Shown here piece after piece: positions 6,167-55,003 of a DNA stretch of 64,000 nt (positions within the stretch are counted from its first letter, which is position 1; each line of letters starts with the position of its first letter). Made by a program: the position numbers and the translations under genes. Location of the stretch: assembly GCA_034401795.1 (NCBI GenBank), contig CM067369.1:133953350-134017349 (forward strand). Reading direction: 5' to 3'. The stretch is from Chaetoderma sp. LZ-2023a (lineage: Eukaryota > Mollusca > Caudofoveata > Chaetodermatida > Chaetodermatidae). A model generated the notes under the pieces. The model made no database searches and was not told the origin of the DNA. It was given only the letters and a program-made list of their open reading frames with translations.

Positions 6167-6356
6167 AAAAAATCCCTGAAAAAGTGAATTCTTTATGACA
6201 ATAAAACTAATTATGTTGAATATTTTGAAATTAATTTAACTCGAAGCCATTGTTGCTGAACAGCTTCCAGTCAAATTAATTTCAAAGTCTTCAACAGTTT
6301 TCTTGTATGATTGCCTTGAAAATGAGATATTGGTAATTCATCTATGAAAGGGTTAA
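6167..6356. mobile_element. F2 MITE abutting F1
   Basis: F2 core TTGAATATTTTGAAATTAAT with its inverted partner around GCCATTGTTGCTG. The right end is TATGAAAGGGTTAA with TTAA at 6353-6356. The left end merges with the preceding F1 right terminus, so one was probably inserted at the other's TTAA. Confidence 0.7.
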
Positions 6357-7054
6357 TTTTACAGAGTTGCCCAATTTTGGCCATTAATGGGTTAAAGAAA
6401 TTCTATGCACATATACCTTTTCTGGTTTATTGATACGTACGAAAAAGATAAACACTAACCGGTTGAACTGTTTAAATACTGGTGCGCAATTGGCACGTAC
6501 CTAGCACACGAGGCGCGCATGGCACTCCAAACACTCCAGGTCAAAATGAAAACCAACCGCCCTTCTAAACAGGCATGACAACACGCTTCAAACTTCGATA
6601 TTATAATGTAAATTTGGTATATGACAAAATTATGTCCCAAGATATATAATTATGCTTTCTCGAGTATCGATAAAATTGCAATAATATCTAAAGGACTCAA
6701 AATATGGATGAGTAAGTATATTATGTGACTTACAATGGCTTACGCATGGCTAACACTATTCTAGAGTGTAGAATGGAGCAAATTGTCAAGACATATAATA
6801 CTATTAACCTCAACCGTATTATTTTGCCATTGATAGAATTCTTGTATATTTTCATTGAAATTCTATGATGGGTTAAAAACATCTGCAACGTATCGATCTA
6901 TTATATAGTAACAGATGTTATGCATCGTGATAACTGAAGATGAATGATTTCTTAGCTCAGGTTATACCTTTGACATTCAATCATGATTTGTAAAACAAGT
7001 CTGAGCAAATTAAGTCATGTAGGGGATTTTGCCATGAATGTCAAAAATTTCATC

Positions 7055-11968: not shown

Positions 11969-12330
11969 ATGCTGGAAAAGTGGGGAGGGCATAGCTATAA
12001 ATGGGTGGAGCATAGCTATAAATGGGCAGGGTATAGCTATAAATGGGTGGCGCATATCTATAAATGGGTGGAGCATAGCTATAAATGGGCAGGGCATAGC
12101 TATAAATGGGTGGAGCATATCTATAAATGGGAGGAGCATAGCTATAAATGGGCAGGGCATAGCTATAAATGGGTGGAGCATATCTATAAATGGGAGGAGC
12201 ATAGCTATAAATGGGCAGGGCAAAGCTATAAATGGGCAGGGCATATCTATAAATGGGTGGAGCATAGCTATAAATGGGCAGGCCATAGTTATAAATGACC
12301 AAGGCATAGCTATAACTGGGAATAGTATAG
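11969..12330. repeat. 21-bp minisatellite derived from an F3 arm
   Basis: About 16 copies of a 21-bp unit, GGGCAGGGCATAGCTATAAAT with GGTGGAG variants, drifting at the right end. Because 21 is a multiple of three, several frames on both strands stay open and give periodic peptides (YKWVEHS and similar). These are not evidence of genes. The unit matches the end of F3, which already carries two adjacent copies (for example 8066-8105). Confidence 0.9.
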
Positions 12331-12632
12331 CTAGAAATGCATCCGTCTATTGTTCGCATTTATCTAGTTGGGTAACTGAAGTATAACGCTCAAGGCACAA
12401 GGCAGGTGACATGAGACAACATACCCGCGTAATGTAATATGCACGCTATTGTCACATTACGCGCATGCTTGCATGACCATTGTTACATTTATTGTCAAGG
12501 TAACATAACAAAGTGAAAGATATAATCTGAATTAATTAAGGTTTATTTAAATTGGATAAGTCTTTGTTGATTTAATTGTCATTTGAAAAATGCTCCATCG
12601 CTGCAAAGGAGGCTTACGTAAGTTGATTTGTA

Positions 12633-22119: not shown

Positions 22120-22555
22120 GGTTATCTGACCCACAACCACGTTAACCAGGAGCCGGTTATCTGGTGATAGTTAATGATGACCAGGAGCTGGAGACCTGGT
22201 TACGCACGATATTATTAGAAGCTGGAAATCTGGTCATGGATGATACTACCTGGAGCTGGAGACCTGATTACGAATGATATTACCAGGAGCTGGAGACCTG
22301 GCTGCAGATGACAATACCAGGAGCTGGAGACCTGGCTATAGCTGATATTACCACGAGCTGGAAACCTGGCTACACATGATATTACCAGGAGCTGGAGACC
22401 TGGCTACAGATGATATTACCAGGAGCTGGAGACCTGGCTACAGATGATATTATCAGGAGCTGGAGACCTGGCTACAGATGATATTGCCAGGAGCTGGAGA
22501 CCTGGCTACAGATGATATTATCAGGAGCTGGCGACCTGGCTATAGCTGATAGTAA
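22120..22555. repeat. 34-bp minisatellite
   Basis: About a dozen copies of a unit built from ACCAGGAGCTGGAGACCTGG plus CTACAGATGATATT. The central copies (22310-22540) are nearly identical and the leftmost are diverged. Each unit contains CCAG/CTGG and CCAGG/CCTGG inverted pairs. Confidence 0.92.
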
Positions 22556-26199: not shown

Positions 26200-28066
26200 G
26201 ATTTATGTACTTTGAACCCTGAATTCTCAGAATTCTATTTTCAAAGTAACTATACATGTAAGCCGTTAAATATTTCAAAACTAATTTGACTCAGGGTGCT
26301 CTCAGCAATATACCCCCAATTGAATTAGTTTAAATATTCAACATAGTGTTTATTAAATAATAAATCCATCAAAGACATACAATTCGTACACTTGACAAAA
26401 TTTTCAATGTTCATCACAGAGCTAGACAAACGTCATTCATTATGCATTTTGATTGCGATGTGACGTAATTGATTATGATGTCATATACTTGAGTGACAGA
26501 TCAGATCCATCCATAGCATATACATTTCTTTATCGCTAAAAAACTGATTTACACAATTAATAACTTAATCTATAGAACAAGTTACAACCAATGGACTTTT
26601 CTGGTTTTAGTTATGCCCCATCCATCTCTAGCTAAGCTCCACCCACACCTCACTCGTGTTTGGATCAATCGAATCTCTATTTCCAGAAAACTATTCAGGT
26701 AAGGTGTTGAATATTTTGATACTAATTTGACTTGCTGCTGCGGCTGCCTATGGCAGCCGCAGCACCCAGTAAAATTAGTTTCAAAATATTCAACAGCATG
26801 TTTATTAAATAGCAAAGACATACAATGCGTACAACATGTCGGACTACTAAGTGTTTAAGACAGACTAAATCGAGTCATTCATGATGTCATGACTATGACA
26901 TCATCCTACACGTCACGTAGTTGATTACGATGGATGGATAAAATGGAAAGGTTCATTGCACCATGGCGTATAAAGATTAATAAAGGTGCTAGCTAGAACA
27001 CCCCGTACATAGTAAATATAATATACCCATGTAAACTCGATTTTTTACAGAATTTTAATTCTTGCCAATATGGATATCATTTGCAGAGATGTAAATTACA
27101 AGGTCGACAATGTCAGGGGTGAGGTGGTGTCTGTGGGTTGGGTGTGGGGGAGGCAGGGGGGGAGGGGGTTACACAAGTATCATGGCTCAGAATCCCCACC
27201 CACCCATTGAGCTCAGGTGACAAGGGTTATCCAACCAAATTACTGGAGTATTAAATTCACAGAATAATGTAAAATAAAATCATGATTCTCACTTTAGAAT
27301 GATTATTTATTGTGATTACATCATGGATGGGAAATCTTGAACAAAGCACTAGAGGATATATAATTTGTGAACAGTCAGCTAGTCTGTTATTTACCATGTA
27401 TTCAATGTCACTTAAAGTATTATCATGAAGCCACCTGTCTGAGAATAAACACATCTCTTGCTGAATGCCCCAGATTATAGCTGTATTAACACTTCAATGG
27501 CCAAGATTGCTCAAGAAAATTCAAAATTTTGCTCTTTGAACATCCATATGCAGGTCAAGAGTTAATCTTTTCATGGCTAAGAAGACTTTTTTACTTAGTA
27601 ATTGTCCATTAGCAACCTAGGCATAGGATATTTTTAAAAGTTTACCACTGGAATGACTGATTTGCTTATTGATCCAGACATTTTCTCAGACGAAATGGAT
27701 ATTCCCCAATACCACTGCCAAAGGCGTTTTTCCCAGCTTGACCATTAACCTTTAATGGATGGGTTTGGTCTAGAAAATACAAAACTTTACCAAATGCTAT
27801 CCATTTGCATGCCAAGAAAAGGTTATCTTTTTTTTCTTTGCCACTGAAATGGTTAGGTCTAATACTGAACTGGTCTTGAGAAATGTTCATTAATTTTTAG
27901 ACCAAGAATAATATTTTTGAAAATTTACCACAGGACATGTTTGCCTCAATAACTGAGCCTATCATTCCATTAATAAATTTCCAAAAATAATCTCCTCCTG
28001 GTCAGCAATGGACATTTTCCATGAGAAAATTATAATTTTCTGACCAATGTTCCCACTAACCCGTAC
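26200..28066. repeat. Tandem segmental duplication, copy 2 (1,867 bp)
   Basis: Direct repeat of 24301-26199. The junction reads CCCGTAC|GATTTATG against GGCAAC|GATTTATG at the left edge of copy 1, so only AC is shared at the breakpoint. The MITEs inside are the same as in copy 1. Confidence 0.95.
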
Positions 28067-28265
28067 CACTCTTATTCTCAATATTATATCTTTTACTGTG
28101 TCAATAGCAAAGAAACTGGTGTACATTTCCCAACAATTTTAGTGGACGATGTTGCTGTCTATGACAGCAACATCTTCCATCAAATTTGTCAAAAAATTAA
28201 CACCAGTCCATCTTTTAATTTAATTTGAAAATTTAAAACTTTGACATCAGAATGGTAAGGGTTAA
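28057..28265. mobile_element. F4 MITE, near-complete
   Basis: Left end AACCCGTACCACTCTTATTC, right end ATCAGAATGGTAAGGGTTAA. Arms GAAACTGGTGTACATTT and inverse. Centre GATGTTGCTGTC/TAT/GACAGCAACATC. Other copies are at 38855, 54797, and split at 40989/50043. Confidence 0.88.
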
Positions 28266-38854: not shown

Positions 38855-39054
38855 TTAACCCGTACAACTCTGATTTCAAAACAGTAAATTTTCAAACTAA
38901 ATTAAAAGATGAACTGGTGTACATTTTTCAACAAATTTAGTGGAAGATGTTGCTGTCGGAGGCACCAAGATCGTCCACCAAAATTGTTGAAAAATGTACA
39001 CCACTTTCTTTGCTATTGACACCGTAAAAGATAGAACAGTGTGCTAAGGATTAA
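38855..39054. mobile_element. F4 MITE with TTAA flanks
   Basis: TTAACCCGTACAACTCTGAT at the left and GTGTGCTAAGGATTAA at the right. Arms AACTGGTGTACATTTTTCAA and TTGAAAAATGTACACCA. TTAA at 38855-38858 and 39051-39054; the flanks outside (AAGCTC and GAGCTT) are also inverted copies. Confidence 0.85.
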
Positions 39055-40599: not shown

Positions 40600-40945
40600 C
40601 TTGTAAAACTATTGCTAAAACCTTTAATGGTCAAAATTGGTGAACAAGTCATTCCAGTGAGGAATTTTCAAAAATTATATTGTCTTGGGTCTGCAAGTAA
40701 ATGTTTATCAAGAACGCAGAAGCTATTTTTGGCCGACTTGCTGAAGAAGCCCTTCCAGTGAAGAATTTTCAAAAATCATAATATCTTGGTATGCAAATGA
40801 ACGTTTATCAAGAACACAGCAGCTATTTTTGGCTGACAGTGTTAAACAATTTATCATCGAATTTGGTCAAGACATTTAAACTTTTTAATAATCAATGACT
40901 ATTTTTGAAGATGTAAGTACAACTGGAATGACTGGTTCAATTATC
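40600..40945. mobile_element. Half-copies of F1
   Basis: Two right-half remnants in series, each ATTCCAGTGAGGAATTTTCA or close, then TCTTGG, GCAA, ATGTTTATCAAGAAC and TATTTTTGGC. A further centre (CTGGAATGACTGGTTC) is at 40921-40936. It looks like repeated partial duplication. Confidence 0.6.
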
Positions 40946-40988: not shown

Positions 40989-41043
40989 TTAACTCTTACC
41001 ACACTGATATCAATATCCTATCTTTTACTGTGCCAATAGCAAC
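40989..41043. mobile_element. F4 MITE, left half, split by the DIRS element
   Basis: TTAACTCTTACCACACTGAT, then CTATCTTTTACTGTGCCAAT and AGCAA, which is the F4 left arm. It stops where the DIRS terminal repeat starts. The matching right half resumes at 50043. Confidence 0.85.
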
Positions 41044-41055
41044 AAAAAAAACCCA

Positions 41056-41370
41056 CAGACCCCCCTTGTGGGTTGGTCTGTTGTTTTATTAACCACTATA
41101 AAAACATACTTACCGTTCAATCACTACTTGCTAAATCAATTATCTGCATTTAGCTATCAGAATAAGATTTTTATGCCTGCATACACACCTCCCCATGCCT
41201 ATTCCTATTAATATGGACCCTCAATCAGGCTACTGGTTAAGTCCATCTCCCGCATACTGACAGCTATAGACTGGCACCAGTCTATACTCACCCCATAGTG
41301 ACGCTTGTCACTAAGCGTGCTTGCGCATGCGCACTGGAGCCCAAATAGGAAACAGATTCACTTTTCTACC
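41056..41370. repeat. DIRS left inverted terminal repeat
   Basis: Nucleotides 41110-41368 are the inverted copy of 49775-50026, very similar by eye, with a small length difference near 41320. The outer 54 bases (CACAGACCCCCCTTGTGGG onwards) are absent from the right repeat but appear inverted in the complementary region at 41393. It contains TGCGCATGCGCA at 41322-41333. Confidence 0.92.
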
Positions 41371-41392
41371 ACGTGGGGTGGCTGAGACCGGG

Positions 41393-41525
41393 TCGTAGTG
41401 ATTGAACGGTAAGTATGTTTTTATAGTGGCTAATAAAACAACAGACCAACCCACAAGGGGGATCTGTGGGGGGTTGTTATTACACCACAAAAACATCCAT
41501 TACCGTTCAGTCACTACTTGCTAAA
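41393..41525. repeat. DIRS internal complementary region (ICR)
   Basis: The first part (to about 41473) is the reverse complement of the element's left end: GTAGTGATTGAACGGTAAG, ATGTTTTTATAGTGG, CAACAGACCAACCCACAAGG. The second part (TTGTTATTACACCACAAAAA, CATCCATTACCGTTCAGTCA) is the reverse complement of the right end. A block matching both outer ends back-to-back is the ICR of DIRS1-type elements, used as the template to complete the termini in a circular intermediate. Confidence 0.88.
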
Positions 41526-41819
41526 CCCGTAGATTTGGTCAGTGCCCCATTTAAACATTAGGTGGGAGGAGATTTGAGAATCAACAAACAAGGATAAAAA
41601 TCGAACCAATCTTATCCAAATGTTAATAACATAACATAATAGTGTATTTAACTCAATCACACCATGATTAACAAATAAGGAAAACTTGAACTTAAAGAAA
41701 TAAATAAAAACCAAAAGAAGACTCTCACCATTTCTCACAGACGCAGAGTCCTAACGAAAATGGTGAAAAGTGCTTGGTAAATGGTCTTCGCCTTTTTTAG
41801 TTAAAATAGTATGTTACGA

Positions 41820-42075
41820 AAGAAGGAGGCTGCTGCACTCTGGTCTTTGAGATAAAAGGATGTAAAAGTGGATTCAGATTTCCATCCTGCCACCTGCATG
41901 ACCTCATCTAAAGATGAACCGTCAAAAGAGCGAAAGAAGTAGCCATACCTCTAAATGCATGGGATTTAATCTGGGAGAGATTAATTTGGTCCGGTGAGGC
42001 TATCCCATAACAAAGCTTAATTGTCTCACAATTCCATCTGGCAATCGTAGATTTTGAGACCGGCTTAGATAACCC
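41820..42075 (-). pseudogene. Tyrosine recombinase C-terminus, extra copy
   Basis: The minus strand reads SKPVSKSTIARWNCETIKLC and then SHAFRGMATSFAL, giving the recombinase HxxR motif. After one frameshift it continues LDEVMQVAGWKSESTF and TSFYLKD, with the catalytic tyrosine region. It is truncated at CTTAGATAA, where a second terminal repeat begins (42076). It is highly similar to 42890-43140. Confidence 0.85.
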
Positions 42076-42393
42076 CCCACAGACCCCCCTTGTGGGTTGG
42101 TCTGTTGTTTTATTAACCACTATAAAAACATACTTACCGTTCAATCACTACTTGCTAAATCAATTATCTGCATTTAGCTATCAGAATAAGATTTTTATGC
42201 CTGCATACACACCTCCCCATGCCTATTCCTATTAATATAGACCCTCAACCAGGCTACTGGTTAAGTCCATCTCCAGCATACTGACAGCTATATACTGGCA
42301 CCAGTCTATATTCACCCCATAGTGATGCTTGTCACTAAGCGCGCTTGCGCATGCGCACTGGAGCCCAAATAGGAAACCGATTCACTTTTCTAA
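42076..42393. repeat. Second copy of the DIRS left terminal repeat
   Basis: Direct repeat of 41056-41370 with a few substitutions, inserted after the truncated recombinase end. TGCGCATGCGCA is at 42346-42357. Confidence 0.92.
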
Positions 42394-42458
42394 ATTTAAG
42401 TGCTAAATATTAAAGGCCAATTCTCAAATCTTACCATGGGGGGTGGCCGAGGCCGGGT

Positions 42459-42593
42459 CATAGTGATTGAACGGTAAGTATGTTTTTATAGTGGTTAATA
42501 AACCAACAGACCAACCCACAAGGGGGGTCTGTGGGGGGGGGTTGTTATTACACCACAAAAACATCCATTACCATTCAATCACTACTTGCTAAA
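42459..42593. repeat. Second copy of the ICR
   Basis: Same composite as 41393-41525. It is preceded by about 44 extra bases (TTTAAGTGCTAAATATTAAA and following) not present in the first copy. Confidence 0.9.
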
Positions 42594-42889
42594 CCCGTAG
42601 ATTTGGTCAGTGCCCCATTTAAACATTAGGTGGGAGGAGATTTGAGAATCAACAAACAAGGATAAAAATCGAACCAATCTTATCCAAATGTTAATAACAT
42701 AACATAATAGTGTATTTAACTCAATCACACCGTGATTAACAAATAAGGAAAACTTGAACTTAAAGAAATAAATAAAAACCAAAAGAAGACTCTCACCATT
42801 TCTCACAGACGCACAGTCCTAATGAAAATGGTGAAAAGTGCTTGGTAAATGGTCTTCGCCTTTTTTAGTTAAAATAGTATGTTACGAAA

Positions 42890-43260
42890 GAAGTAGGCTG
42901 CTGCACTCTGGTCTTTGAGATAAAAGGATGTAAAAGTGGATTCAGATTTCCATCCTGCCACCTGCATGACCTCATCTAAAGACGAACCGTCAAAAGAGCG
43001 AAAGAAGTAGCCATACATCTAACGCATGGGCTTTAATCTGGGAGAGATTAATTTGATCCGGTGAGCAAAGCTTAATTGTCTCACAATCCCATCTGGCAAT
43101 CGTAGATTTTGAGACCGGCTTAGATAACTCTTGGTTTAAACGTGATTTATTTTGTTCAGATGGAAGCACGATAAGACTTAGAGTCTTATGCCCATGTCTC
43201 CCATACACATACAGATTATACACAATTTTTTTACAACAAAATGGCGGCAAATCATAATAG
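42890..43260 (-). pseudogene. Tyrosine recombinase, C-terminal part
   Basis: LPSEQNKSRLNQELSKPVSK, STIARWDCETIKL, INLSQIKAHAL and, in another frame, the GWKSESTF/FYLKD segment. The HxxR motif appears as AHAL followed by a frame break (the first copy has HAFR), so this copy is also non-functional. It is the continuation of the core at 43770-44396, separated by inserted sequence. Confidence 0.8.
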
Positions 43261-43312
43261 TTTAATTAATTGTAGTCTATTAGTGTGTGCATAAGTGTGT
43301 GGATGTTGAGTG

Positions 43313-43425
43313 TGAGGTGGGGGAGAGCAGGAAGAAAGACCGAGATAGAGAGAGAGAGGGGGAAAGGGGGGAGAGAGGGTGAGAGATAGAGAGAGCGAGG
43401 AATAAGATCAAATGGAAGAATAGAA
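43313..43425. repeat. GA-rich simple repeat
   Basis: AGAGAGAGAGGGGGAAAGGG-type sequence next to the 3' end of the LINE fragment; it may be the expanded tail of that insertion. Confidence 0.8.
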
Positions 43426-43429
43426 GAGG

Positions 43430-43795
43430 TGAGCTCTAGGTGCTGCCTTCGCCCCGACCTGTACGTGTTGGGCTGCTGTCCATTTACCGCGTAAACTATA
43501 AGTTCGAGAACAGGAAGCTACCGAAAGCAGTTGGTGTTAATTATGTATTGACATACCATATTACAGATCAGTTTGTTCATTTCCAAGTTGGCAGTGTAAG
43601 TCCCGTATAGAAGCTGGTTGACCATAAGAGTAGCAAGAGAAATATTGTTCAAGGCAAGCTGATTTTGGAAAACGACTCTGCTCGTTTAAAAGGGCACAAT
43701 GTAAGAGGTAGTGGTTTGTAGATTCATCATTGTGCCCACAAAAACAACTGACAGATTCCGACAGAAAGTTGTCAATTAGATAGCTCTTCCGCGTA
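43430..43795 (-). pseudogene. LINE reverse transcriptase C-terminal fragment inside the DIRS recombinase
   Basis: The minus strand reads FPTRKSYLIDNFLSESVSCF, then CGHNDESTNHYLLHCALLNE. After a frameshift it continues QLLYGTYTANLEMNKLICNM and ends NTNCFR-stop. The CxCG...STxHYLLHC pattern followed by LLxG and a short FI/NT tail is the common C-terminus of several LINE clades. It lies between the recombinase pieces, so it is a later 5'-truncated insertion. Confidence 0.78.
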
Positions 43796-44396
43796 GGAAA
43801 CCCATAAATGGGATGGATCGACCCTTTTAAAATCGGTTCGCTGTTTGTAGGTTCTTAATGCCCTAACCGGACACAAAAATTTATCGGATAGTGAAAAAGA
43901 TGATAAAGATTTTTAAATGATCAGACTAAACTGAGTTTTAGATAAAAAGTCCTTTCTAGGATATAAAATCAAACCGTCTCCTGAAACTATAAATCTATCC
44001 ATTTCAGCAGAAAGAGCATGAATCTCTGAACACTTTCTAGTGGAGGCGGCAGCAACAAGAAAAACCCCTTTGAGAGTTAAAAGCTCAATACTGATAGAAG
44101 AAATCGGTTCAAAATGGCGACCTGCCAAAACTTGAAGAACCAAAGCCAAATTCCAGGAAGGTAAAGGCTTAGCAATCGGAGGACGCATATTACCTAGACC
44201 TCTAATAAAACTATTAAGAGTCTTAGTATCATTGACATCAGCATTCCGAAGACAAGGAAGGGAAGACGCCAGAGAAAATCTATATCCCGTGACCGTATTA
44301 GCTGACAAATGTAAAGAATCAAACAAATAGGATAAAAATTCTAATACTTGTGGTATAGAAACAGAATCGGGCACGAAACCCTGGTCTGAAAACCAC
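43770..44396 (-). pseudogene. Tyrosine recombinase, N-terminal and core part
   Basis: SIPQVLEFLSYLFDSLHLSA then NTVTGYRFSLASSLP form the N-terminal core-binding domain. The core follows with VFLVAAASTRKCSEIHALS, containing the first catalytic arginine, then DGLILYPRKDFLSKTQFSL. After a stop at 43913 comes DKFLCPVRALRTYKQRTD in the next frame. These are characteristic blocks of DIRS recombinases (ASxxRxSEIHAL and LCPVRALxxY). HxxR and Y lie downstream at 42890-43140. Confidence 0.88.
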
Positions 44397-45400
44397 TCAC
44401 CACAAAATTTTAAGTCGACCCATGTAAACTTGACAGGTCGATTCCCTTCTGGCAGTCAATAATTCTCTGAGATCTTGAAGAAGCCTTATTCTCGAGGACC
44501 TCAGACTCGAGATTCTCCAAACGCACAGATTGAAGATTTCTGGATTTGGATGCACACAAAGACCTCTTACTTGAGATAGAAGATCCTGGGATACTGGAAG
44601 AAGATGAGGGAAGTCTACCAGAAGATCTAGAAGGTCTATAAACCAAATCCTCTTGGGCCAAAAGGGAGCTATCAGAAGAACCTCGCAATCTTGGTCCTTG
44701 ACCTTCTTCAAGACTAGCGGAATCAAATTGTTGGAGGGAAGGCATAGGCGAACATTCCTGTCCAGGACTGAGACATAGCATCCACCGCCAGGTCTTGACT
44801 GTCCGGAAAAGGAGACATGCAAGAGGAGATTTGGGCATTCAGAAAGGTCGTGAACAGATCTACTAGAGGACGATCCATAAGACTGAAAAACGCTCTGACA
44901 ACCGACTTCTTTAACTTCCACTCTGTGTGGGTGAAGTTACTGGGGCGTGACAGTTGGTCCGCCAGAAAATTCAGACTGCCTGGGACATGGGAGGACACTA
45001 GAAAAATCTGACTCTTGCGGCACCACAAGAGAAGATTCCACACTTCTAGACAAAGGAGAGATGACCTTGTACCTCCCTGCCTGTTGATATAAGACACCAC
45101 TGTCGAATTGTCCGACCGAATCGAGACTGAGACCTATCACAAGATCTGATCATGAAAGAAGAGCCTTCTTGACAGCCCACAACTCCAGAATCTTGATATG
45201 GGCTATCGACTCCTCCAGGGAGCAAAGGCCGGAAACTGACAGGGAGTCCCAGACTGCTCCCCAACCCTCCTGGGAAGTGTCTCTGAAGATAATCGCCTGA
45301 GGGGAGAACTTTACCAGTGGAACACCCATCAGAAGCAGAGAACGATCTCTCCAAAAATCTAGATGAGGGATCAAATGTTCTCTGATGGTAAATAGAGTGG
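44397..45400 (-). pseudogene. DIRS RNase H and linker domains
   Basis: RNase H: IIFRDTSQEGWGAVWDSL, ESIAHIKILELWAVKKALLS and, in a second frame, SIRSDNSTVVSYINRQGG. The usual first Asp of TDAS is changed (RDTS). The linker follows with SSHVPGSLNFLADQLSRPSN, RPLVDLFTTFLNAQ, SPFPDSQDLAVDAMSQSW and FAYAFPPT. In a third frame it continues NNLIPLVLKKVKDQDCEVLL, IAPFWPKRIWFIDLL and the PNPEIF segment leading to the recombinase. At least two frameshifts separate these blocks. RNase H degrades RNA in RNA/DNA hybrids during element replication. Confidence 0.88.
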
Positions 45401-46060
45401 ACTGACTGCTTCCATAGGGACATTAAATACATTTGGAAGGGTCTCCTCATCAGCGCCGCCCAAGGAATTACTTTCTCTACTCTGACCATCAGTCCTATCA
45501 CTCTTAAAAAGAATCTTGCTCTTACCATGGGAGAAGACAGGATTTCCATTGCCACTGATAAAGCCTCTATCCTTGGATCTGAGGGGAAGACTAGACCCCG
45601 GGCCAGGTCGAAAGAAACGCCTAGATGTGTAAGGATATGAGATGGAACTAGGCTTGATTTCTTTAGACTTAAAATCCACCCTAGGTTGCATGCCAGACTG
45701 CAAACCTCTGAAAGAATTCCTGAGAGAATTGAAGAAGACTTACTTTACTAGCCCATCGTCTATATAAACATGGAGATGGATAGAACGATGGTGAAAATTT
45801 CTGCCATGGCTGAGACTATGCGAGAAAAAGAAAAGGAGCCGTGGTCAGTCCAAAAGACATGACGCGAAACTGCCAAACTCGATCTTAGTAAGCAAAACTC
45901 AGGAATTTACTGAAGGAAGGGTAAATGAAAAACATGAAAGGCGTCATATTGGTCAATGGAAACGACCACATACCCTGACCTAGATTGGAAAATATCCGGG
46001 AGATGGTCTCCATCTTGACTTGGGAGTAAGAATCATGAGATTTAATCATGACATACCCCT
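45400..46060 (-). pseudogene. DIRS reverse transcriptase
   Basis: SYSQVKMETISRIFSNLGQG opens the domain. Motif A appears as VVVSIDQYDAF in another frame. Then FRVMSFGLTTAP, and the catalytic motif as HVYIDDGLVK (YIDD encoded by the complement of 45755-45766). The thumb follows as ARFFLRVIGLMVRVEKVIPW and LMRRPFQMYLMSLW. The four pieces lie in different frames with stops between them, so the enzyme is dead. The N-terminal part before KMET is not recognisable. Confidence 0.82.
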
Positions 46061-47880
46061 TGTTAAATTAAAATTAATGCAGATATGAATGACAGGGTAG
46101 GAAAACCTGACAGGGTAGGAAAACCTACCCTAGGCTGAACGCTCTCATGTATGTATAAATTCCTTAGAATTAACATAATTCACAAAGAAAACTAACATGA
46201 TAATGACCAAATTGTCAATTGAAAGGACCAGAGGAGACAAGAAAAAAGGAATTAAAAGAGGAAACAGCCGACACAAAAGAAGGAAGGTCTATAGAAAACT
46301 CGTCCTTAAAAAGAAGAGAAAGAGTCTAAGCAATCCACCAGAGAGACAGGGACCAGACATCCGAAGAGACCCTGACTGGACAAAATCTCCTCAGCCCTGA
46401 CCGACTAGGGAACAGAAGAATAAGAAGACGGATTAGGAGAAAAGAGATGAGAAGAGTCACCAGAGGCCACAGAATCAACAGTTCAAATGGAAAGAGGAGA
46501 GCAAAGCCTCTTGGAAGCTAGACAGTTAGAAAAATGTAAAGAATCAGAAAAGGAAAAAGATTGATCAGAAGGAATGTGAACAGATACAACATCCTGACCA
46601 GAGGACATGGAAAGAATAGAATGAAAGAACGAACAAGAGACGAATCCCTAAAAACAGAAAACAATGAAAAAACCAGACCTTAATCAACAATTAGAAACTC
46701 AAGTTCAAAAGAGAACGACAGAAACAATCAGATCAAGATGATCAAAAGAGGAAGAAGAAGGAGGAAGAGAGGAATTAAGAAGAATGGAAGATGAAGAGGA
46801 AAGAACAGGACCAGAAGATCCCTGGATAGGATAGATAGATGATGAAATACGGGAAACCTCAGAGGAGGGAAAAAAGAAGAAAGACAGAAAGAGAGAAAGA
46901 GGAAGGAGACCATGACTAGAAGAAAACTTTAGCAGGAGAAGGAGCAGAGGATGAAGGAAGAGACCTATACTTATCTTACTCATTATTATTAGACTTAGAA
47001 CCAATATTATCATCATGTAAAGACAGATGTCATTGAGATTGATATGCTAATAAAAGGAATGATTGATAGAATGATAATGAATCCCGGGAACATCTGGATG
47101 TTAAATACACAAAACACTAATACTTGATTATGATTAAACACTACGGGATGAAAGCACAAAACAAAACACTGAAAAACAGAGGCAATATAAAATCTAAGCA
47201 AAAGAGACTCGCCTAAACCATGACTGTAACAACGCAGAAGAAAAAACTCGGCTTTTATTCCTTCTTCCTTCACCATAATCTTATTTCTCTATTCTCAGCA
47301 TTTTCTAGCTCTTGTAATCATTAATCTTAGAGCCATTCTCTTCCCTATGAATCCACTACTGAAACTATTCCTTTCAGCAGCTGACAGAATTAGACTAATA
47401 ATTACGCTAGAAACGGGGATTTTCTTCGAGAAAATAACTCCCTTTGGATAAATAAATATGTCAACCTGCCGACATAAGAGGAAAAAAGAGCGCGAAAAAA
47501 GGCTGAACGGCCCAAAGACAACTGGCCATCTAAAGTTGGATGAAATTAAAAACTAATTTTAATTGCGACATCTAGTGATAATGCGTAGAATACACTGACT
47601 TATCGACTGCAACAAAAAACCCATCCGGCAACCAGTCGGAAGAGTCTTTAATTACGTTGAAAAGTTTCACTGATAAAAGAATAAATGCTGAATATTTACA
47701 ATTTCAAGAGAGACTTCAAGACTGGCAATGTCTCGGAATTAGTATTTTCAGCGATTAAACATTCCGATTTTAAAAGCACTTACTGAAATAAGACTAACCT
47801 GGAATCTCAATAAGAGCTATCACCGCAAATCAAAAAGGAAAACAGAACCGGACGTTAATCATAGAACACCATGAAACCGG
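46060..47880. other. DIRS interior, not interpretable
   Basis: Strongly purine-rich on the plus strand (AGAAGA, GGAAGAAGAAGG). Minus-strand frames are Ser/Leu/Phe-rich, for example 46705-47016, from this bias. In position it should hold the end of gag and the start of pol, but no motif is visible. It may be diverged or acquired sequence. Confidence 0.45.
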
Positions 47881-47887
47881 TAATGAC

Positions 47888-49235
47888 CCTATCCCCGGAT
47901 GTACGAATCCGGAAGTGAAAAAATAGGAAACGGAAATGCGCAAACCGGAAGAAGACAACCGGAAACTGAACCCAGATGTACATTAAAAAAACAGAATAAA
48001 CAAAGGAACCGGAAATACGCAAAACAGGAAGTCAGTCCGGATACGGAAAGAACGGAGGTAGATCCAGAAAATGGAAGTAACCCCTGTCCTGAGGACGGAA
48101 GTTTATCGGAGTCTGAATGACCCGGAAGTACACCTCTAGAAACAGAAGTGGAAGTGTACAGACAGGAATCCAAACTGGAAGCGGGAGCGCTTCTACCGGA
48201 AGACAAAAAATAATAGGAGTCCACAGACCCCGGATATCCGGCATCACCGGAAGCGCTGCTAAAACCGGAAACGGAACTAGGAACCGGATCTTGAGGACCC
48301 GATGTCCTACAAAAATGGAAGACATACTGGAAACAGACGGAACGGAAGTAATAACTGGATCTTGACGACCTGGATTTCCTGCCAAACCGGAAGTCCTACC
48401 GGAAATGGATGCCAGAGAAGAAAGAATCAGATCCTGAAGACCCGGATGTCTTGCTAAACCGGAAGTTAAAACGGAAAAAGGAAGTAAACTCGAGTCCAGA
48501 GGACCCGAGTCCACCACAACGGAACCGGAAGAACTAGCAAGACTAGAAATCAAATTCTTGGCAATGGGCGATCTAGAAAGAACCTTGATGACCGGTACAA
48601 TCGAAAAATTGGCATTTGCATACAGTCCAGCCTTATGGACATCAGCCTCAGCCTCTGTCACCACTGCTTGTGGGTTATGCCCGTCACCCTCAAGTCTTAG
48701 GTGGGTTTGACCAGGTACACTACACGAGCCCACATTCGAGAGCTTAGTCTCTCTAGACTTCTGCTTCGGAGATTTTTTAACCTGCATGGAGGTTAGAGGT
48801 ACCGGTTTCCCCCATTTGCGGGAACGTCCGCTAGCCTTCGAGCTATCATTGGAACTTGAATAAATATCCTGTTTCTTAGTCTCCTTTATTGCAGAAGATA
48901 TCCTTTCGTCAAGGGATTTCGTCAAAACAGATGCGAACGATTCAAATCTTGCAAAAAGAGCTAGCACGGCATCTGAATTCGCTGAAGAGGCTCCCCCCCT
49001 CCTCCGTTGCTACCGGTAAAGATACATAAGATTGTGCAAAAGACACAGCTTTCGCCTTGCTAGCAACGGAGGTAGGGGAAGGATGACCGGAGGGCAGCGG
49101 TTGTTTAAACGGTAAATCTTTACAAAGAGGCCTTAGACACCGAGACCGGACACCCTTTACAGATCCCACACATCGTTGTGAAGGTACAAGTGGTACATAT
49201 CGCAGACATGCCCGGAAAATTCAACTGAATGATGG
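47888..49235 (-). pseudogene. Gag-like region of the DIRS element
   Basis: Near the right end a short frame starts MSAICTTCTFTTMCGICKGC, a CxxC...CGxCxxC cluster that could bind zinc. A later minus frame (48032-48967) starts LALFARFESFASVLTKSLDE, basic and Ser-rich, with diverged internal repeats (SGLARHPGLQDLILSSLASI and SGLAGNPGRQDPVITSVPSV). Its place upstream of RT and its composition suggest Gag, the RNA-binding particle protein. I recognise no certain Gag motif. Frames are broken between the pieces. Confidence 0.5.
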
Positions 49236-49239
49236 CGAT

Positions 49240-49770
49240 CACACTTTGATGACGTACATTTTGTCTTGTCAGACGATTTAGCGGACTCCTAAAAACGAAA
49301 AACGTAACAATGAAGCATATCGCTTAAAAATCGTAAAAAGAAGACTAGAAAGATAAAAATCATTTCTTTAAAAGGCGGAAAAGTTCAAATCAGAAAGCAA
49401 AATCACTACCGACAAGAAAGCAAACTTGCATAGGGATAAATGATAATCCTTATAATGCACTAGAGTAAATTGATAAGGGCTCTGGATGACTGCTGGAGTT
49501 TAATATATGATGATGAATGATATAGGCATAGTAATTAAGATACCACGAAACGAGAACGATCTTTCACGAAAACCGGTAACAATATGAACATAGTTATAAA
49601 ATACCATATAACCATGAATATACTTCCTTCACATAACGTAGGGAGGATTGACTTCATATTAGGCATAATCTTGATAATATAGAAGGCAAAAAATGTAGCT
49701 GACACAGCACAAAGCACAAAAAACTTAGACAAATATTTTAAGCAGTTGTTCTGCATGCAGAATAATTGAA
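49240..49770. other. DIRS 5' leader region, no gene
   Basis: AT-rich sequence between the Gag-like start and the right terminal repeat. The minus frame at 49535-49807 is hydrophobic but overlaps the terminal repeat, and I do not consider it real. Confidence 0.45.
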
Positions 49771-49774
49771 AAGT

Positions 49775-50042
49775 GAATCTGTTTCCTATTTGGGCTCCAG
49801 TGCGCATGCGCGCTTAGTGACAAGCGTCACTATGGGGTGAGTATAGACTCATGCCAGTCTATAGCTGTCAGTATGCTGGAGATGGACTTAACCAGTAGCC
49901 TGGATGAGGGTCCATATTAATAGGAATAGGCATGGGGAGGTGTGTATGCAGGCATAAAAATCTTATTCTGATAGCTAAATGCAGATAATTGATTTAGCAA
50001 GTAGTGACTGAACGGTAATGGATGTTTTTGTGGCGTAATAAC
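49775..50042. repeat. DIRS right inverted terminal repeat
   Basis: Inverted copy of 41110-41368. The outermost 16 bases (GTGGCGTAATAACA) are unique to this end and appear inverted in the ICR at 41473. TGCGCATGCGCG is at 49801-49812. In the direction of transcription this is the 5' end and presumably carries the promoter. Confidence 0.92.
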
Positions 50043-50149
50043 AACTGGTGTACATTTTACTACAATTTTGGTGGATGATGTTGCTGTCTAATCTTTTAAT
50101 TTAATTTGAAAATTTATAAAAATTTTCACATCAGAGTGGTAAGGGTTAA
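50043..50149. mobile_element. F4 MITE, right half
   Basis: ACTGGTGTACATTTTACTAC, GGTGGATGATGTTGCTGTCT, then ATCTTTTAATTTAATTTGAA and CATCAGAGTGGTAAGGGTTAA. TTAA at 50146-50149. The central hairpin is partly deleted. It continues the left half at 40989-41043. Confidence 0.85.
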
Positions 50150-54796: not shown

Positions 54797-55003
54797 AACC
54801 CTTAGCTGACTCTGATGTCTAAATTTTAAATTTTCAAATTAAATTAAAGGATGAACTGGTGTTCATTTTTCTACAAACTTGGTGGAGGATGGTGCTGTCA
54901 TAGACAGCAACATCGTCCACCAAAATTGTTGAAATATGCACACCAGTTTCTTCGCTATTGGCACAGTAAAAGATAGAATACTGACAACAGAGTGACAAGG
55001 GTT
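54797..55003. mobile_element. F4 MITE
   Basis: AACCCTTAGCTGACTCTGAT at the left and ACAGAGTGACAAGGGTTGA at the right. Centre GATGGTGCTGTC/ATA/GACAGCAACATC. Arms ACTGGTGTTCATTTTTCTAC and the inverse. Confidence 0.85.

Follow-up and report, generated by a model that had tools for sequence, protein, structure and literature searches.

A decayed, composite DIRS1-like retrotransposon inside an F4 miniature inverted-repeat element of Chaetoderma, from a family with an extended target preference

A 64,000-nucleotide stretch of the mollusc Chaetoderma sp. LZ-2023a (contig CM067369.1 of assembly GCA_034401795.1, positions 133,953,350 to 134,017,349; hereafter the window) holds a DIRS1-like retrotransposon that splits a copy of F4, a miniature inverted-repeat transposable element (MITE). 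Comparison with other copies in the genome (2.44 Gb, 2753 contigs) shows a composite structure, not a simple single insertion; the preliminary description missed a tandem 3′ tail, two internal complementary regions and a nested 643-bp insert. We think it probable that this decayed locus was built in three steps, namely, entry of a first element into F4, entry of a fragment resembling a long interspersed nuclear element (LINE) into that element, and addition of the tail of a second family member.

Three whole F4 copies (28057-28265, 38855-39054 and 54797-55003) lie in the window beside the one split by the element. When aligned by blastn to the intact copy at 28057, the two flanks of the element come to within three bases of each other (28110 vs. 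28114): on the left, window positions 40990-41042 match 28057-28110; on the right, 50043-50090 match 28114-28161, after which 50091-50149 match 28210-28265. The preliminary description had placed a DIRS1-like element within F4, with both halves of the target identifiable, and had named beforehand flanks at non-adjacent F4 positions as the observation that would speak against it; the flanks are adjacent, and the placement therefore stands. Its right boundary, at 50043, agrees within three bases with the one that we find (50042/50045), but its left boundary, at 41043, has to be moved to about 41049-41053, the end of an A-run. Both F4 halves are present as it had said, but the right half is incomplete, lacking 48 bp (28162-28209) that are retained in 23 of 23 other aligned copies (the three from the window, and 20 fetched out of the 40 scored among 4793 candidates from a genome search). 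In the joined flanks, the A-run at the left junction is 4 bases longer than in all 23 of these copies. It was also right that no long target duplication was made: AAC stands on both sides of the element in F4, and F4 itself is not duplicated. F4 is short (~208 bp), palindromic and present in high copy number, with terminal inverted repeats and TTAA at both ends, most of the 23 copies starting with TTAACCC and ending with GGGTTAA, and is therefore a MITE; in its ends, length and palindromic form it is like MITEs with TTAA and CCC...GGG ends, and we presume that it is piggyBac-like.

The element has the anatomy of the DIRS1-like class. Its inverted terminal repeats, as claimed earlier, extend over 218 bp at 96% and a further 44 bp at 100%. 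Complementary regions align along both element ends joined at AAC, overlapping the 3-bp circular junction, and a pattern scan of the window and of the 20 long family loci fetched for comparison matched 26 such regions, all of them with a G-run ahead of the junction (another four matches were flank sequence). Integration took place at the junction trinucleotide without target duplication. Ngaro and PAT elements have split direct repeats in place of inverted repeats; here the element ends are inverted, and there is no long direct repeat apart from the doubled tail, which was not seen in the other copies.

The window element belongs to a very large DIRS family in this genome and is ordinary in kind, its composite state being unusual but explicable. 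The search for other copies of the terminal repeat that the preliminary description had proposed was productive: all 40 scored of 1995 candidates found with the 5′ terminal repeat match it, and the exact 25-base 5′ end, with a base other than G before GTT, occurs 2617 times. At 22 distinct sites the 5′ flank trinucleotide is GTT in 20 and ATT in two, preceded by A at –9 in 16 and by C or T at –8 in 19. Genome-wide, AYM at –9 to –7 is found at 644 of the 2617 5′ ends, 3.4 times as often as at background HGTT sites (104 of the 1436 that lie in the 55 kb of the window not taken up by the element). Among 100 flanks listed from 2153 matches to a neutral pattern, in which G was excluded at –4 and –16, A occurs at –10 in 63, at –9 in 61 and at –4 in 73, C or T at –8 in 83, and C at –5 in 41; these flanks are all on contig C1, and related repeats are the targets of some of the insertions. 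After severe thinning to 70 flanks, positions –10, –9, –8 and –6 are still biased, and –5 weakly. Together these flanks show a family preference for an extended target of about the form AAY-NN-CA-GTT, which F4 fits.

At its 3′ side the element ends in two tails in tandem (units 1 and 2 in Table 1), identical at 980 of 1008 aligned bases (97.2%). The junction between them, where a 3′ end abuts a GTT of the recombinase gene (AAC at 42071-42073), is found once in the genome, whether searched for exactly or with as many as three mismatches allowed. For each unit a closer relative exists elsewhere, and of the 666 pairs formed by 37 other tails, 37 are no less similar than units 1 and 2. With a divergence like that of other pairs, and paired with a support of 40 in the tree described below, the tails are those of two family members, or else copies made about the time of insertion, and no late duplication. 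A recent duplication of the tail was considered and rejected, the 2.8% divergence being equal to that of other close family pairs.

Next to the tail junction lies the nested insert. Many relatives align up to base 6267 of the element and pick up again at base 6911, from which it follows that the window copy carries an insert; the 643 bp are missing in 25 of 25 copies spanning the site. We call the insert LINE-like on the basis of a zf-RVT profile match (E 0.015, below the cut-off) and of its 13-bp duplication. The GTT of the tail junction falls inside this duplication, and with the edge of the insert in front of it the target score of that GTT rises from the 36th to the 97.9th percentile of background. 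From this site we favour the order F4, DIRS element, LINE-like insert, second DIRS tail.

In the history that we think probable, the first element would have integrated as a circle, by its own tyrosine recombinase, at the GTT of F4 (CACCAGTT); circle formation and recombination at the 3-bp junction are taken from the published DIRS model. The LINE-like fragment would next have entered the recombinase gene, making the 13-bp duplication, and its edge would have set a better target sequence before the GTT within that duplication. At this GTT a second family member could have integrated by its 3′ end, a 1.05-kb tail being all that remains of it; DIRS copies nested in DIRS copies also occur in the fetched loci L016, L026 and L040. 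The rest of the second element may have been lost, by deletion between short repeats or by recombinase action between its end and an internal GTT, or may never have arrived, if what integrated was a short circle.

Several observations weigh against this reading. The order of events is drawn from a single site, and the 5′ end of the second element is not seen at the locus. The two units have three non-majority bases in common, a number equalled or exceeded in 26 of 560 other pairs, and a maximum-likelihood tree of 39 tails (the two window units and the 37 others) pairs them with a support of 40, on a stem of 0.0009 vs. tips of 0.015, which leaves room for a common origin of the two tails near the time of insertion. 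As to the class of the element, all domain profiles, in the window and in pieces from relatives, fell under the curated Pfam cut-offs, and sequence searches of the PDB returned no recombinase or reverse transcriptase (RT) chain. The shared bases and the tree pairing would also fit an in-place tandem duplication of the tail soon after insertion, by unequal exchange or by recombinase action between the 3′ end and an internal GTT; we hold this to be quite unlikely, because the units differ at 28 bases, like unrelated copies, with the 37 pairs mentioned above at least as close, whereas L038 and L042, a pair duplicated recently, agree at 99.2% and are joined with a support of 100. Two full elements in the same orientation, one inside the other, could likewise have left two tails if homologous recombination between their bodies had removed one of them: nested DIRS insertions do exist in the fetched loci L016, L026 and L040, and the tails resemble two family members. 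However, a LINE-like insert in the outer element would have gone with the outer body, so that the insert would need to be in the inner element by coincidence, at the exact site that the inner one had used, and without it that site is a poor target, at the 2nd percentile of insertions as well as the 36th of background. We consider such a course of events unlikely.

Preference also bears on how the first element came to lie in F4. Twelve family 5′ ends, including those of the window copy and of L016, are at the F4 site AATGNACNCCAGTT, where 0.76 would be expected at the average HGTT rate, a ~16-fold excess to which duplicated insertions may contribute. The 16-fold figure is approximate, since the pattern used for these 12 demands three fewer 5′-end bases than that used for the 2617 and the background was taken from 55 kb of the window. 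F4 sites occur in very large numbers (18706 genome matches vs. 215 for the reversed control pattern), and the insertions might be recurrent merely through this abundance, with no preference past the trinucleotide; abundance, however, is already included in the expected number, and the AAY and CA bias is also present in non-F4 flanks, making this explanation very improbable. Scored with the target model, the F4 sites reach the 96th and 99.6th background percentiles; much of the excess is thus probably due to sequence preference.

We suggest, tentatively, that the recombinase might read a target of ~10 bases (AAY-NN-CA-GTT), the MITE being a reusable landing pad for it, and that it might also integrate a short tail-only circle, running from an internal GTT to the 3′ end, when another insertion makes a good target. 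The doubled tail may record a partial integration. Target-site choice of DIRS elements is poorly described so far: the available text of four sources (PMC3266345, PMC5633606, PMC5977194, PMC9210276) gives a trinucleotide or no preference, and our literature search found no title on an extended DIRS target motif, which is no proof that none exists. The present family has thousands of copies, and some lie in a MITE of which many other copies are empty. This allows occupied and empty sites to be compared directly and yields a target motif on which the recombinase can be tested; the extended preference is the part that we think worth following.

Table 1. Features of the composite element and of the F4 copy that it splits (window coordinates)
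Feature	Position	Strand	Basis or remarks
Composite DIRS1-like element, 5′ end 50042, 3′ end ~41053	41053..50042	-	Inverted repeats, complementary regions, genome relatives
5′ terminal repeat, begins GTTATTACGCCAC	49768..50042	-	Inverted match to 41100-41366 and 42124-42390
Gag-like region, two open frames (325 and 92 codons) that overlap	48032..49220	-	Position; Pfam matches at chance level only
Putative RT and RNase H region, split over several frames	44723..45960	-	Frames, motifs by eye
Putative recombinase, N-terminal and first catalytic part	43913..44455	-	PF02899 E 0.21, below cut-off; stop-free relative L020
LINE-like insert, 643 bp, in recombinase gene	43133..43775	-	13-bp duplications 43120-43132 and 43776-43788
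Tail unit 2: recombinase end, complementary region (42461-42593), 3′ terminal repeat	42074..43128	-	Match to unit 1
Tail unit 1: same tail again (complementary region 41395-41525), adjoins F4 flank	41053..42073	-	Inverted repeats, match to unit 2
F4 left part, ends in A-run and AAC flanking the element	40990..41052	+	Aligns to F4 28057-28110; A-run length
F4 right part, starts AAC, without 48 internal bases	50043..50149	+	Aligns to F4 28114-28161 and 28210-28265

On the minus strand the regions come in the order Gag-like, RT/RNase H, recombinase. The preliminary description was correct in reporting these blocks, but they are broken by stops and frameshifts, and the tyrosine recombinase profile that it expected matches only at a sub-threshold level, and only in better-preserved relatives: PF00589 matched three of four of their C-terminal pieces (E 0.0014, 0.016 and 0.034, below the curated cut-off), PF02899 being the sole Pfam match of the window's own recombinase piece. 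The RNase H profile PF17917 matched two of ten pieces from relatives (E 0.0017 and 0.0074), again below the cut-off. The motifs in the RT region, judged by eye, we take to be those of RT, and HxxR, W and Y, invariant in the recombinases of five relatives, presumably represent the tyrosine recombinase signature. The RT and recombinase assignments are accordingly worded as putative, from motifs together with sub-threshold Pfam matches. No methyltransferase profile matched among the pieces sent to Pfam, a search not dedicated to that domain. Pattern searches of viral_contigs for relatives of the RNase H and recombinase pieces gave 12 and 19 matches, respectively, none of them confirmed. An open recombinase C-terminus is kept in L037, L040, L052, L058 and L025. 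Open stretches of at least 60 codons with recombinase motifs number 47 among those listed, two of which (L037 and L025) span both halves by exact motifs, and L040, L052 and L058 span both by eye. A broken form is common to several other copies, which may reflect the spread of a broken subfamily helped by other copies.

Published elements offer close parallels. GaDIRS1, GaDIRS2 and SkoDIRS2 are DIRS1-like with GTT ends and an AAC junction, the latter also given for TnDIRS1a (Table 3 of PMC3266345). As far as the available part of that source goes, the family described here is like the first three in its inverted terminal repeats, its complementary regions meeting at AAC, its GTT ends, the lack of a target duplication, the extension of the 3′ end, and the Gag, RT/RNase H and recombinase regions; it differs in size (~7.3 kb is the length we infer for the uninterrupted element, vs. 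5.3-6.3 kb), and the window element is composite and broken, and no profile shows a methyltransferase domain in it. DIRS-1 of Dictyostelium, in the available text of PMC5633606, shares the circle model with the complementary region as template and the occurrence of copies inside copies, but is said to target its own copies with no apparent sequence preference, whereas the family here has an extended preference around GTT, and strong self-targeting was not shown for it.

The 3′ ends and some of the fetched loci merit a brief description. At the three readable empty targets (F4 in the window, L026 inside another DIRS copy, and L040 inside an older one) the 3′ end reads GGGTTT, by eye, as opposed to the run of G in the complementary regions, and 12 of 35 3′ ends examined have at least five T after the G-run. 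At window positions 41044-41051 a T-run (read as A) takes the place of part of the G-run. L016 has two 5′ ends (9191 and 5498, minus): one copy occupies another F4, at the site that is also used in the window, and the body of this copy in turn contains the second DIRS copy. The 5′ ends of L023, at 828 and 2826, are in tandem with an identical 40-base flank, a duplication that carried the flank along. In L010 (9166, minus, and 2559, plus) one 5′ flank is found at both element ends, inverted; an inverted copy of the 5′ end, flank included, thus seems to have taken the place of the 3′ end. Elsewhere in the window, another family of palindromic repeats, which recurs there many times, forms a 100-bp tandem pair at 40637-40837, and tandem arrays of 21/63-bp and 34-bp units lie at 11981-12339 and 22180-22551, respectively.

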